A DNA stretch of 41,294 nt from Candidatus Parcubacteria bacterium (GTDB taxonomy: Bacteria; Patescibacteriota; Minisyncoccia; UBA6257; 2-01-FULL-56-20). This document shows, in pieces, positions 3,726-9,688 of this stretch. The stretch lies in NCBI GenBank assembly GCA_027355945.1, contig DAIEHA010000008.1:1-41294 (forward strand), written 5' to 3'. A model generated the notes under the pieces. It worked only from the letters and a program-made list of their open reading frames with translations, was not told the DNA's origin and made no database searches. Positions within the stretch are counted from its first letter, which is position 1. Every line of letters begins with the position of its first letter. Made by a program: the position numbers and the translations under genes.

Positions 3726-6700
3726 TATATCTTGCGAAGCCCTATCCACGTTTCCTGCCCTTCGATCTTCCCGATTTCCTCCGCAATGCATTTTTCCGAA
3801 CGCTTCATCTCCGCACGGGAGGCACCCACCTCCTTGATGAACGCGCGTTCGCTGCGCGCCACGGCTTGCGCTACATCCGGCGGAAGGGCCATCATCGCCA
3901 CGATCCGGTCCTTCGGGGAAAGTCCCGCCTTCTGCCTGAGTTCCTGGAACATGCGTACCACCTCGCGGAAGAGGCCTTCCTCCCGAAGCGCAGGCGTGAT
4001 CGCCGTATCAAGGGAAAGTTTCTTTGCCTTCGGGTTCACGATCACCTTCTTCACATTCACCTCCTCGGCGAGGATCGCCTCGAGGTCCTTCCCGATGCGC
4101 GCGCCCACCGTGACGGATGCGAGCGGTTGACGCACCTTGATCCCTGCTTCCGCCCGTTTTGCGAGACCCGCGGCGGCGAATCCGCGCACCACCTCCATCT
4201 CCTCTATACGCTTCCGCTCCGCAGCGGAAATCGCCTTGGGTGCCTTGGGCCACGCATCGAGATGCACCGATTCCTGCGCGCCTCCGAGCGCACCGTAAAG
4301 TCCCTCTGAGAAGAACGGCGTGAATGGCGCCATCATGGTGACGATGGAAAGGAGTGCGTGGCGCAGCATGGCGGACGCCGCGTTGCGGTCCGCGGCGCTC
4401 TGCGGTTTCTGGAGCCGCCGGCGCGAACGGCGAATGTACCATCGCGAAAGGTCGTCCACGAACGCATCGATCTCGAGCGCCGCTTCGCGGATCTCATAAT
4501 GATCGAGTTTCGCCGTCACGGATGATGCCGTGGCGCGGAGGCGCGCGAGGATCCAGCGATCGAGCGCGGTCGCCGGCTTCGCCTTCCCGGAAAGGATTGC
4601 GGGGGAAAGCGTGGCGGCCCGATCGGCATACGTACGCCAGAAGACGAATGAGTTGTATACGATGAGATGCGTGCGGCGGAACGCCTTTGCGATCTCCCCC
4701 TCGTCGAAGTTCTTCGGTTCGCCAAGCGGGGATCCGGTGAAGAAATACCAGCGAAGCGCGTCCACACCATACTTGTCGATCACCGCGAACGGCTCCACGA
4801 TATTCCCTTTCGATTTCGACATCTTCTGTCCGAACTTATCATTGATGAGCCCGAGCGCCACCACATTCTTATATGGAACGCCGTAGCCCAACGCGGTCGC
4901 GATCGCCATGAGCGTATAGAACCATCCCCGGGTCTGATCCATCCCCTCCGCGATATAATCGGCGGGATACGGGATCCCTTTCGGCAGCATCTTCTTCGTC
5001 CGCGCGCCCCGAGGAGCATCCTTACCTCCCCCTTGAGCAAACGGGAAATGCACCTGCCCGTAGGGCATCGCACCGGAGTCATACCACACATCCGCAACCT
5101 CAGGCACGCGATGCATGGTCCCTTTGGCGCACTGGGCGCAGGGAAACGCGAGATCGTCCGCGAAAGGACGATGAAGGTCCACCTCGCCGGTATCGTTGCG
5201 CGGTATCTTCATCACTCTGAGCGGCATCACTTCCGCAAACCCTATGAATCCCTTCTTTTTCTGCCACACCTGATCGATCTCCTCGATGGCCCGCTTCTCG
5301 CTCCATCCTTCCGCCGCATGGAATAGCATCCATGCGGGATATTCGTGGGTGATGATGAGGATGTTCTTTCCTTCATACTTCGCCTCGCACTCCTCCATGA
5401 ATTTCCAGACGCGGGCGCGCACATCCCGCAGCGACTCCCCTTCCTCCGGACGCCTCTTGAAACGGTCATCGTACGTCGGGAACGCCTTGCCGTAGCTCTC
5501 ATCCCGGAGCCCCCAGAACGAGGGCCCGAGATGGATCTCCTCGATGCGACGGTCCGCGATGCAGTCCTCTTTCGGGATCCCGAGTTCCTTTGCCGCAATC
5601 TCCGCGGTCTGAGAGGTGCGCGTGATGTCCGAATGGATGAGGAGATCGATCTTCTTCCTCTTTTTTGCGAGTGCGGCGGCGAACGCCTTCGCGGAGCGTT
5701 CCGCCTGTCGCTTGCCGCGGGCGGTGAGCTCAAGATACTTCCGCTCCCCGGAATCGATCATGTCGAACACGTTGCTCTCGGCCTCGCCGTGGCGCATCAC
5801 CCAGTACGTGTTCCGCGCGCCCCCTGCATGCCGGTCGAGCTCATCAAGGCTTCCCACGACCTCCGTATGCCCGCACCCGCGGCATTCCCATATGGGAAGC
5901 GGCGCGCCCCAGTATCGCTCGCGCGAAAGATTCCAATCCTTCGCTTCTTTCAGCCATTCGCCGAAGCGCCCGTCCTTCACATGCGACGGCTGCCATCCCA
6001 CCTCGCGGTTGTTCTTCCTGAGCTCGGCGCGGAGCTTCGCCATCGCAATGAACCACGAAGATCGCGCGTAATAGAGGATCGGCGTCCCGCAGCGCCAACA
6101 GAACGGATATTCGTGCACATAGGACTCCGTCCGAAGGAAATTCCCATGCTCGTTGAGATGCGCGAATATCGCCTTCTCGGTCTCCTTCGCTTTCACGTAC
6201 ATTCCCGTAAACCCGGCGACGTCCTTCGTGAATTTCCCCTCCTCGTTCACCGTATGGCGTTCGGGAAGCCCCTCCTTCTTGCCGAGCGCATAATCGTCCT
6301 CGCCGTACATCACGGCGGTGTGTACCACGCCCGTACCGTCGGTCGTCGTCACGAATGATGCAGGATAGATCCGATATGACCGCGGACCGGCGAGCGGCGG
6401 GACCTCGAACAGCGGCTCGTATTCGAGCCCCACGAGATCACGCCCCTTCACGGTCCCCACGATCTCCGGCGCCTCCTCTCCGAACACCGCACCGACGCGT
6501 TCCGTCGCGAGGATATATATCTCTTTGGTGCCTTTCGGACGGACCATCCGATACTCGATTGCTTCGCCGACCGCGAGCGCCACATTGCCCGGCAGCGTCC
6601 ACGGCGTCGTCGTCCACGAAAGGATATAGGTATGCGCATCCGATGCGGGCCCTTCCCCGATCTTCTGTCCCGGCCTCACCCTGAACTTCACATACACCGA

Positions 6701-7351
6701 TTCATCGCTCACCTCCTTGTATCCCTGCGCGAGCTCGTGCGAGGAAAGCGCCGTACCGCAGCGCGTGCACCATGGCACCACTTTGTGTCCTTTATAGAGA
6801 AGGCCGCGCGCCGCGATCTGGGACATCGTCCACCAGATCGATTCGATATACTCCGGGGCGTACGTCACGTACGCGTTTTTGAGATCGAGCCAATAACCGA
6901 TGCGGCGCGTCATCCTCTCCCATTCATCCTTGTAGATCCATACCTGCTCCTTTGCGGCCTCGTTGAACCGCTTCACCCCATACTGCTCGATGTCCTTTTT
7001 CGTCTTGAACCCGAGCGCCTTCTCCGCAGCCATCTCCACGGGGAGCCCGTGCGTGTCCCACCCTGCCCTGCGCGGCACCCGATATCCCTGCATCGTCTTA
7101 TAGCGCAGGATGACGTCCTTCACCACGCGCGAAAGCACGTGATGGATCCCCGGCTTGCCGTTCGCATACGGAGGCCCTTCGTAGAACACGAACTCCTTTG
7201 CCGACCCTTTTTTTACGAGCGAGCGCTCGAACACATGGCGCTCCTCCCAAAACGAAAGCACCTTCTCTTCGGTCCCCGGAAGATCAAACTCCCCTCCTAT
7301 GAAATCAGGCGCTTTGCGGGATGCGCGCCCGCGATGCGATCGTGTGGACAT
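3725..7351 (-). CDS. ileS: Isoleucine--tRNA ligase with an inserted histidine-phosphatase (phosphoglycerate mutase-like) domain
   Basis: HxGH-type motif (PGIHHVLSRVVKD), GWDTHGLPVE, KMSKSKGN, DVWYDSGAMPYGQ; internal VMRHGEAESN...SDITRTSQTAEIAA...ILIITHEYPA. Start at MSTRSHRG (7351) with an extended -10 just upstream. Confidence 0.93.
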   Translation of the reverse strand: MSTRSHRGRASRKAPDFIGGEFDLPGTEEKVLSFWEERHVFERSLVKKGSAKEFVFYEGPPYANGKPGIHHVLSRVVKDVILRYKTMQGYRVPRRAGWDTHGLPVEMAAEKALGFKTKKDIEQYGVKRFNEAAKEQVWIYKDEWERMTRRIGYWLDLKNAYVTYAPEYIESIWWTMSQIAARGLLYKGHKVVPWCTRCGTALSSHELAQGYKEVSDESVYVKFRVRPGQKIGEGPASDAHTYILSWTTTPWTLPGNVALAVGEAIEYRMVRPKGTKEIYILATERVGAVFGEEAPEIVGTVKGRDLVGLEYEPLFEVPPLAGPRSYRIYPASFVTTTDGTGVVHTAVMYGEDDYALGKKEGLPERHTVNEEGKFTKDVAGFTGMYVKAKETEKAIFAHLNEHGNFLRTESYVHEYPFCWRCGTPILYYARSSWFIAMAKLRAELRKNNREVGWQPSHVKDGRFGEWLKEAKDWNLSRERYWGAPLPIWECRGCGHTEVVGSLDELDRHAGGARNTYWVMRHGEAESNVFDMIDSGERKYLELTARGKRQAERSAKAFAAALAKKRKKIDLLIHSDITRTSQTAEIAAKELGIPKEDCIADRRIEEIHLGPSFWGLRDESYGKAFPTYDDRFKRRPEEGESLRDVRARVWKFMEECEAKYEGKNILIITHEYPAWMLFHAAEGWSEKRAIEEIDQVWQKKKGFIGFAEVMPLRVMKIPRNDTGEVDLHRPFADDLAFPCAQCAKGTMHRVPEVADVWYDSGAMPYGQVHFPFAQGGGKDAPRGARTKKMLPKGIPYPADYIAEGMDQTRGWFYTLMAIATALGYGVPYKNVVALGLINDKFGQKMSKSKGNIVEPFAVIDKYGVDALRWYFFTGSPLGEPKNFDEGEIAKAFRRTHLIVYNSFVFWRTYADRAATLSPAILSGKAKPATALDRWILARLRATASSVTAKLDHYEIREAALEIDAFVDDLSRWYIRRSRRRLQKPQSAADRNAASAMLRHALLSIVTMMAPFTPFFSEGLYGALGGAQESVHLDAWPKAPKAISAAERKRIEEMEVVRGFAAAGLAKRAEAGIKVRQPLASVTVGARIGKDLEAILAEEVNVKKVIVNPKAKKLSLDTAITPALREEGLFREVVRMFQELRQKAGLSPKDRIVAMMALPPDVAQAVARSERAFIKEVGASRAEMKRSEKCIAEEIGKIEGQETWIGLRKI

Positions 7352-7455: not shown

Positions 7456-7797
7456 TCATTCCGGCACGAAGAACGTCCCTTCCCGGGAAAGCACCTTCTC
7501 GATCACCCCGGCAGGGATCGTCGCCGTGTGAACCTTCCCTTCGAGGGTCTTTCCGGTAAGCATCACCGATATTGAGGGCCTCAGCCCGAACGCCTTCCTT
7601 ACGATACGGAAGAAGATCGGCGGACGGACCCTCGCCTTCCATCCTTCGTTCACGATGAGCGATCTCCCGCATTGCGGAAGGAACGCGCTATCGGGTACGG
7701 AGATCCCGGCAATGCAGCAGATCCCCGGCGCCGAACGATCCGGATCCTCGCGAAGGCGGATCTCTTTGGTCGCCATCTCTATCCTTCTCGATGCCAT
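7456..7797 (-). CDS. Hypothetical protein (~113 aa)
   Basis: Fits the gap between ileS and argS; SD-like GGAGGGG before ATG (MASRRIEMATKEIRL...). No family recognised. Confidence 0.5.
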   Translation of the reverse strand: MASRRIEMATKEIRLREDPDRSAPGICCIAGISVPDSAFLPQCGRSLIVNEGWKARVRPPIFFRIVRKAFGLRPSISVMLTGKTLEGKVHTATIPAGVIEKVLSREGTFFVPE

Positions 7798-7858: not shown

Positions 7859-9688
7859 CTATATTTTTTCAAGCACCCCCATGCCGAGAAGGCCGAGCCC
7901 CGTACGGAGAACCTCCGCCGCATCCGCGGCAAGCCCCAGGCGCGCGGCGCGCCGGACGGCATCCTCATCCTTGAGGACGGGCGTTGTCTCATAGAACTTG
8001 TTCGCCGCAACGGCGAGACGATAGCAATATGCCGCGATGACGCTCGGCGCAAGGCGCTCCGCGGCGCGCGCAACCGCATCGGGGAATTCGGCAAGACGGC
8101 GGATGAGCGCGCGCTCCGCATCATTCCCGAGAAGAGCGACCCCGTCCGCACGTCCCTCGGTTCCGGTTCCATTTCCGGTACCAGTACCCATGCTGCCGCG
8201 CTCCATGGACACGTCCTTTCCGAGCCCCGCCTCGTCGGCCTTGCGGAGGATGCTCCGCAGACGCGCATACGCATAGTGGAGATACGGCCCCGCATCCCCT
8301 TCGAACGAAAGCGATTTCTCGAAATCGAACACGATATCCTGCCCGGGATTCTGCTTGAGGATGGAATACTTTATGGCGCCCACGGCGATCGTCTCCGTCG
8401 CCATCGCGCGCTCGCCATCATCAAGCGCGCTCCGCGCGCTCACTTTCTCTGCAAGACGCTCCTTCACCTGATCGAAAAGGTCCTCGGCCGTAACCACGTC
8501 CCCGGTGCGCGACGACATCTTCCCGGTCGGCAGTCGCAGCATGCCGTGCGGCATATGCCGCGTCCGCGCGGCGACCTCCGGAGGCAAGACCTGCGCCATC
8601 GCCCTCAGAAGCACTTTGAAATATTCCACGATCTCGTTCCCCGTCACCACGACAGAGAGATCGAGCGGATATTCCTCGAACTTCTTCCTGTTGAGCGCAA
8701 GCTCCTTCGCCTCATAGGTGGGGAGGCCCCGCGAGTTCACGAACACGCGTGTGTGAAGCCCGTATTCCTCCCCGGGAAACACGATCGCTCCCTCGCTCTT
8801 CGCGAATATACCCTTCTCAAGCCCCTCTTCCACCGCATCGAGTCCAGGCGCCGCCATCTCGCTTTCAAAATAATAGCGGTCGAACTTCGTCCCAAGGCGT
8901 GCGTAGACCGTCTCGAAATATTCGAGGCTCCATGCGCGCCCCGTGGCATAGAGACGGTTCACATTCGCATCGTCCTTCGCATAGATCCTCTCGTTCAGCA
9001 CGTCGATCTCGCCGCGGGATTGCAGATCATCCTCGTACGCGCGCGCGCCGTACGCATAGGCCTCCCCAAGGAAGGCCATCTTGAGGCCGATACCGTCGTT
9101 CGCCTCCGGCATCACCTTTCCGATCCGCTCCATCCCCCATACCGCCTTCGCCACATGAAGACCCACGTCTCCCTGATAGTTCGCACACACCACCTTTGCG
9201 CCCGTCGCAGCATAGAGCCGCGAGAACGACTCGCCGATCGTGTTGCTCATGAGATGCCCTATGTGGAAAAGTTTGAATGGATTCGGATCGGTGAACTCCA
9301 CCATGACCGTCCTTCCCTCCATTGCGGTATTCGTCCCATACATGCGCCCTCCCGCCGCGCCGCGCCGCACGGCTTCCGCGATCGCCGCATATTCCGCGCG
9401 CCATGCATCCATGCTCGCCCAGAAATTCACGAATCCCGGCGCCGCGGCCTCCACCTTCTCGAAGAATCCTGCAGGCGCCGCGGCGCGGACCTTCTCTGCG
9501 ATCTCCTCCGCAAGGGCCATCGGGGCCATACCGCGTCCTTTTGCGACCCGCATCGCGGCATTCGTCGAAAAATGTCCCTGCACCTCCGGTTCATCGGGCA
9601 CGGATACCTCCACTGGCGCATCCGCTCCCCCGCCGCCGAGGGCGGCGGCCACGAGCGCCGCAATCTTTGCATTCATGGACAACTCCAT
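7859..9688 (-). CDS. argS: Arginine--tRNA ligase
   Basis: VMVEFTDPNPFKLFHIGHLMSNTIGES, class I ArgRS C-terminal anticodon-binding region. Confidence 0.93.
   Translation of the reverse strand: MELSMNAKIAALVAAALGGGGADAPVEVSVPDEPEVQGHFSTNAAMRVAKGRGMAPMALAEEIAEKVRAAAPAGFFEKVEAAAPGFVNFWASMDAWRAEYAAIAEAVRRGAAGGRMYGTNTAMEGRTVMVEFTDPNPFKLFHIGHLMSNTIGESFSRLYAATGAKVVCANYQGDVGLHVAKAVWGMERIGKVMPEANDGIGLKMAFLGEAYAYGARAYEDDLQSRGEIDVLNERIYAKDDANVNRLYATGRAWSLEYFETVYARLGTKFDRYYFESEMAAPGLDAVEEGLEKGIFAKSEGAIVFPGEEYGLHTRVFVNSRGLPTYEAKELALNRKKFEEYPLDLSVVVTGNEIVEYFKVLLRAMAQVLPPEVAARTRHMPHGMLRLPTGKMSSRTGDVVTAEDLFDQVKERLAEKVSARSALDDGERAMATETIAVGAIKYSILKQNPGQDIVFDFEKSLSFEGDAGPYLHYAYARLRSILRKADEAGLGKDVSMERGSMGTGTGNGTGTEGRADGVALLGNDAERALIRRLAEFPDAVARAAERLAPSVIAAYCYRLAVAANKFYETTPVLKDEDAVRRAARLGLAADAAEVLRTGLGLLGMGVLEKI

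Follow-up and report, generated by a model that had tools for sequence, protein, structure and literature searches.

The closest described parallels to the gene considered here come from synthetases that have taken up additional domains. CAAD, a lineage-specific domain that also forms a stand-alone family, has been captured repeatedly, also internally, by ValRS, IleRS, LeuRS and other synthetases of cyanobacteria, and in one case the free CAAD gene adjoins the synthetase gene in close relatives (PMC4893482). An isoleucyl-tRNA synthetase (IleRS) with an extra enzyme domain is also represented by the NCBIfam family ileS_w_GNAT (NF040702), which is curated by NCBI as an exception and in which the additional domain is an acetyltransferase. 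Among type 2 IleRS, the swapped GXHH form of the class I signature motif has been tied to mupirocin hyper-resistance (PMC10485003). The present analysis concerns ileS in a 41,294-nucleotide stretch (the window) from Candidatus Parcubacteria bacterium (contig DAIEHA010000008.1), a lineage of the Patescibacteria close to Candidatus Kaiserbacteria, in which the encoded IleRS contains a complete histidine-phosphatase (HP) domain within its zinc ribbon.

The window IleRS resembles the CAAD case in that several synthetases have repeatedly taken up a domain and in that a free gene occurs beside the synthetase gene, and CAAD is the nearest precedent for recurrent domain capture of this kind. CAAD, however, is not an enzyme, whereas the domain described here is a conserved enzyme placed in the IleRS zinc ribbon across most of a class. 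No CAAD/Curt1 membrane domain was found in a Pfam scan of the window IleRS, in which His_Phos_1 is the only inserted domain. The protein scores 317 bits against the ileS_w_GNAT cut-off of 1999, and its extra domain is a phosphatase rather than an acetyltransferase. The host enzyme is like the type 2 IleRS with GXHH in its nearest structures and its GIHH motif, but a phosphatase domain is not mentioned in the account of that group (PMC10485003). Searches of the open-access literature turned up no account of a histidine phosphatase within IleRS or ValRS, and the nested architecture is probably already present in domain databases.

A histidine-phosphatase domain within the IleRS zinc ribbon

The ileS coding sequence is a single unbroken frame in the list of open reading frames (ORFs) of the window, as an earlier note made from the sequence alone had read it, and both halves of the frame contribute to a score of 835.4 bits for the ileS equivalog TIGR00392 (cut-off 621.4; NCBIfam). 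In the Pfam scan the tRNA-synt_1 domain is split into two pieces with His_Phos_1 between them, the latter scoring 96.8 bits against a curated cut-off of 21.7. An AlphaFold2 model of the whole protein built from a 52-sequence alignment reached a mean predicted local distance difference test score (pLDDT) of 91 and a predicted template modelling score (pTM) of 0.85, and its nearest solved structures in a Foldseek search are type 2 IleRS. By its nearest structures and the swapped GIHH motif, the enzyme is assigned to type 2, GXHH subtype.

The insert is flanked by WECRGCGHTEVVGSLDEL and DLHRPFADDLAFPCAQC. The empty site is plain, because the IleRS of insert-less relatives reads straight across the insertion point, as IGSVAELEELTNQ-KVKDLHRPFIDE or as ...IGSVAELEELTNQ-KVKDLHRP.... 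The earlier note had placed the insert at 5250-5830, which agrees in location and not in its exact bounds with the stretch delimited here (Table 1). It had likewise located the insert correctly between two CxxC pairs, but the description of these pairs as flanking the catalytic core did not hold: each pair is one half of a single zinc ribbon, which is situated between the editing domain and KMSKS and which we take to be a zinc site as in Thermus IleRS.

Modelled alone, the insert adopts the alpha/beta histidine-phosphatase fold that the earlier note had proposed (AlphaFold2, pLDDT 94.9, pTM 0.91) and aligns with histidine phosphatases at a template modelling (TM) score of about 0.7 (E 2e-13; Foldseek). 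Phosphatases and mutases are its closest relatives among solved structures, for example Rv2419c and a phosphoserine phosphatase. The window insert has the RHG motif, the Arg downstream of it, the acid Glu and the second His, among them each of the hallmarks that had been named beforehand, and these catalytic residues are invariant or nearly so among the 66 IleRS copies compared (Table 1). This conservation has the pattern of a working enzyme and not of a relic, so that the domain is predicted to be catalytically competent, as had been suggested, and a pseudo-enzyme reading is rejected. Fold and catalytic residues alike are shared with branch 1 of the HP superfamily, including phosphoserine phosphatase 1 of Hydrogenobacter (4ij5), PhoE (1h2e) and Rv2419c (4qih), although identity to the insert is only ~20-26%, and unlike these enzymes the insert is nested in a synthetase and carries a signature of its own, HEYPxW, following the second His (Glu in 46/66 and Trp in 52/66 IleRS copies). 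This signature is common in inserted copies and rare in free-standing ones, which suggests adaptation to the host. The NCBIfam equivalog cut-offs of the named HP enzymes (phosphoserine phosphatase, alpha-ribazole phosphatase and dPGM) were not reached, the best score being 68 bits against 326 for PRK07238, with 53 bits against 163 for TIGR03162; the SixA family gave a weak match to the window protein.

Table 1. Positions in the window of ileS, its motifs and inserted domain, and the neighbouring argS
Feature	Position	Strand	Remarks
ileS, isoleucyl-tRNA synthetase, 1208 aa	3725..7351	minus	ATG 7351, stop 3725; Pfam/NCBIfam; interrupted by the phosphatase domain
Class I signature motif	7139..7150	minus	swapped GIHH (usual HIGH)
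Zinc ribbon, first CxxC pair	5873..5884	minus	C470/C473 of alignment A3, nearly invariant
Inserted stretch, phosphatase with linkers	~5165..5818	minus	as in alignment A1; ends at DLHRP, the motif from which the host sequence continues
His_Phos_1 (PF00300)	5291..5803	minus	residues 518-688; Pfam E 1.7e-27, second scan E 2.7e-29
Catalytic Arg-His of the RHG motif	5789..5794	minus	66/66 IleRS copies
Second catalytic Arg	5618..5620	minus	R67 of A1; 66/66 IleRS copies
Acid/base Glu	5537..5539	minus	E94 of A1; Glu 64/66, Asp 2/66 IleRS copies
Second catalytic His, HEYPxW signature	5345..5347	minus	H158 of A1; His 66/66 IleRS copies
Zinc ribbon, second CxxC pair	5129..5140	minus	C718/C721 of alignment A3, nearly invariant
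KMSKS motif of the synthetase	4811..4825	minus	
argS	7859..9688	minus	ORF identified by reading its ArgRS sequence; upstream of ileS, with one small ORF between

Distribution, stand-alone form and movement between backbones

Distribution was counted across the phylum, in relatives (81 genomes), in the class (286 genomes) and in the wider phylum. A query of the insert with its flanks found matches in 76 of the 81 relatives, most of which span the whole query in frames of ~1100-1300 aa and some of which are free-standing genes or ValRS; the nearest public relatives include a metagenome-assembled genome of Candidatus Kaiserbacteria. In the class the insert family is present in 231/286 genomes at E 1e-12, and among the ~150 best places listed class-wide all but seven lie in synthetase-length frames; its distribution becomes patchier in the wider phylum. 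The nested phosphatase is not the single oddity that it had seemed from one sequence: it is real, widespread and kept by selection, it occurs also as a neighbouring gene, it is paralleled in ValRS, and it belongs to a broader pattern of enzymes nested in the class Ia synthetases of these bacteria.

Eight genomes from four families have a free member of the insert family (~183-228 aa) directly upstream of an insert-less ileS (G097, G122, G165 and G203 of family f44; G155 of f75; G194 of f85; G290 and G304 of f90). In 5/5 of these genomes scanned, argS precedes the free phosphatase gene, giving the order argS-HP-ileS, and the window too has the order argS-ileS, with the phosphatase inside ileS. 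The inserted and free forms make up one group in the tree (SH-aLRT support 97), within which operonic and nearby free copies cluster beside the inserts (SH-aLRT 94, weakly resolved). At the argS/ileS junction of the window, where other families have the free phosphatase, there is a small ORF of 113 aa (7456-7797, minus strand) that by eye is no phosphatase. In other Patescibacteria (L131, L132, L093), histidine phosphatases have as fusion partners a 2-hydroxyacid dehydrogenase, with which they might form a serine pathway pair, and a VTT membrane domain.

The insert has not simply been inherited with its host. The tree of the IleRS core falls into two groups with 100% support, one mostly with swapped GXHH and the other with HYGH, and in the group of the window backbone 33/37 members have GIHH or GVHH. 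In three genomes of the window's own genus (G002, G004, G006), the IleRS core is 42-49% identical to that of the window and the insert ~60%. The insert tree departs from the core split and forces at least four changes, and holding the second core group together on the insert tree was rejected by the approximately unbiased (AU) test (p 3.4e-5, with the constrained group named from the core tree and a bootstrap that had not fully settled). A strictly vertical history, in which the insert descends with its IleRS from one origin per backbone, is therefore rejected, and the conflict between the two trees indicates transfer of the insert between two IleRS backbones that are deeply split.

Nested enzymes in other class Ia synthetases

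In the ValRS of many relatives, a different histidine phosphatase lies between the two CxxC pairs of that enzyme, with its His/Arg catalytic set kept in 17/18 copies. The ValRS inserts form a tree group largely separate from the IleRS inserts, which includes a free gene of the window genome; the ValRS of the window genome is itself without an insert. A single origin for the HP inserts of IleRS and ValRS is unsupported by these largely separate groups. In other classes, IleRS of 1290-1572 aa carry one, two or three HP domains; for example, a 1572-aa IleRS (L088:167-4882) holds three at three different sites. Similarly, one ValRS has two HP domains. Several further features of ValRS were observed: two proteins (L040, L046) have, beyond the phosphatase, an extra insert that by eye resembles an ASCH/PUA-type domain and has no Pfam match; the ValRS of many class members lacks the usual C-terminal arm and stops at about position 715 of the 863 in the profile; and one ValRS frame (L143:1903-5043), open over 2374 aa in the genome, has a methyltransferase-like stretch N-terminally.

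LeuRS of the class usually measure 800-850 aa and some reach 1000-1500 aa. In Pfam scans of a set selected by length, which is not a frequency sample, many long LeuRS have a NUDIX domain between the editing domain and the core, and others have a serine hydrolase, Ham1, HAD or nucleotidyltransferase-like domain, some holding two different ones (L136, L138, L139, L140, L142, L144, L148, L151-L157). No histidine phosphatase was found in the long LeuRS loci by HP profile scan or in further LeuRS by Pfam scan. In addition, one ValRS carries a serine hydrolase, and one IleRS that is without a histidine phosphatase (L158:193-3780) has NUDIX at residues 225-343. The Ile, Val and Leu enzymes, as the three large editing synthetases of class Ia, could be regular hosts of nested small hydrolases, each with its preferred kind (HP in Ile and Val, NUDIX and Ham1 in Leu), which would jointly form a tethered system that clears nucleotides or phosphorylated compounds left over from charging; this wider proposal is rather doubtful.

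Possible functions and meaning of the nested phosphatase

The preferred reading, to which we give a rough probability of 0.4, is that the insert is an active small-molecule phosphatase tethered in cis to IleRS for local clean-up around charging. The domain would be ancestral or nearly so in the class, and members of its gene family stand in some relatives as separate genes with argS on one side and ileS on the other. Its role may be to take phosphate off an inhibitor or by-product of isoleucine charging, with a nucleotide or a phosphorylated amino-acid-like compound as candidate substrates; hydrolysis of a nucleotide by-product had been put forward in the earlier note and is still a hypothesis. 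Tethering in cis would let the charging and clean-up functions be produced together and in equal numbers. The comparisons go as far as a conserved, apparently competent phosphatase domain joined to IleRS; we infer that the domain is active in the cell, and its substrate and its link to charging are guesses. Tethered clean-up agrees with the restriction of the inserts to one family, with the stand-alone gene in the operon, with a signature linked to the host and with the presence of further phosphate hydrolases; the NUDIX, Ham1 and HAD domains of class LeuRS, as hydrolases of small phosphorylated compounds, are counted in its favour, as are the wide occurrence of the family in the class, the retention of the insert in differing IleRS backbones, the other histidine phosphatase in the equivalent loop of ValRS and the IleRS with two or three HP domains. 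Several observations weigh against it. The insert family is dispensable, because its free gene lies away from ileS in three genomes (G048, G058, G077) and 55/286 class genomes have no match at E 1e-12. Besides the insert, the window genome has three free histidine phosphatases, so that such activity exists without IleRS. The nested LeuRS set also includes a serine hydrolase and a nucleotidyltransferase-like domain, and a theme of phosphate clean-up is therefore not clean.

Nearly as likely, and close in probability, is that the domain is an ordinary housekeeping phosphatase with no tie to charging, carried as a passenger in a synthetase whose loops tolerate compact domains, where nesting would give steady expression and one gene fewer in a small genome. 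The variety of unrelated enzymes nested in class IleRS, ValRS and LeuRS (HP, NUDIX, Ham1, HAD, serine hydrolase and nucleotidyltransferase-like) is what a passenger would lead one to expect, as are the free copies away from ileS, the HP fusions to a dehydrogenase and a membrane protein elsewhere in the phylum and the movement of the insert between IleRS backbones. However, the inserts of class IleRS come from one family and not from a random choice, most of the genomes with a free copy have it next to ileS, and the prevalence of HEYPxW in inserted copies suggests adaptation to the host.

A regulatory or repair role, in which the domain would dephosphorylate either the synthetase itself or a partner protein, or else damaged or modified tRNA ends, appears improbable: the domain does sit on a tRNA-binding enzyme, and the HP superfamily includes phosphohistidine phosphatases such as the weakly matched SixA family, but by sequence and by fold alike it matches small-molecule phosphatases and mutases best, and no kinase or modifying partner came to light, none having been sought. 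Less probable still is a local pyrophosphatase that would split the pyrophosphate released by isoleucine activation and so pull the reaction forward. The soluble pyrophosphatase PF00719 is present in only 18/94 class genomes and was not found in the window genome, which counts in its favour; however, the H+-pyrophosphatase PF03030 is present in the window genome and in 60/94 class genomes, and the insert also occurs where PF00719 is present (G042, G082, G085, G090, G113 and G117 are examples), so that this role is not favoured. Known enzymes of the HP fold, moreover, mostly act on phosphomonoesters. Across the class genomes, PF00719 and PF03030 largely replace one another. Finally, an assembly chimera or pseudogene insertion is refuted, because the insert recurs, with matched flanks in most of 80 relatives and also class-wide, in many independent assemblies, at one site, in an open frame and with its catalytic residues kept, which excludes chance and assembly error.

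The presence, over most of a class, of a conserved second enzyme in an essential enzyme of translation points to some chemical need, whether of isoleucine charging or of life with a very small genome, and the stand-alone form in the operon makes this accessible to tests in trans. The wider nested hydrolases provide several independent cases of the same rule. Annotation by whole-gene name conceals the second enzyme in these genomes.
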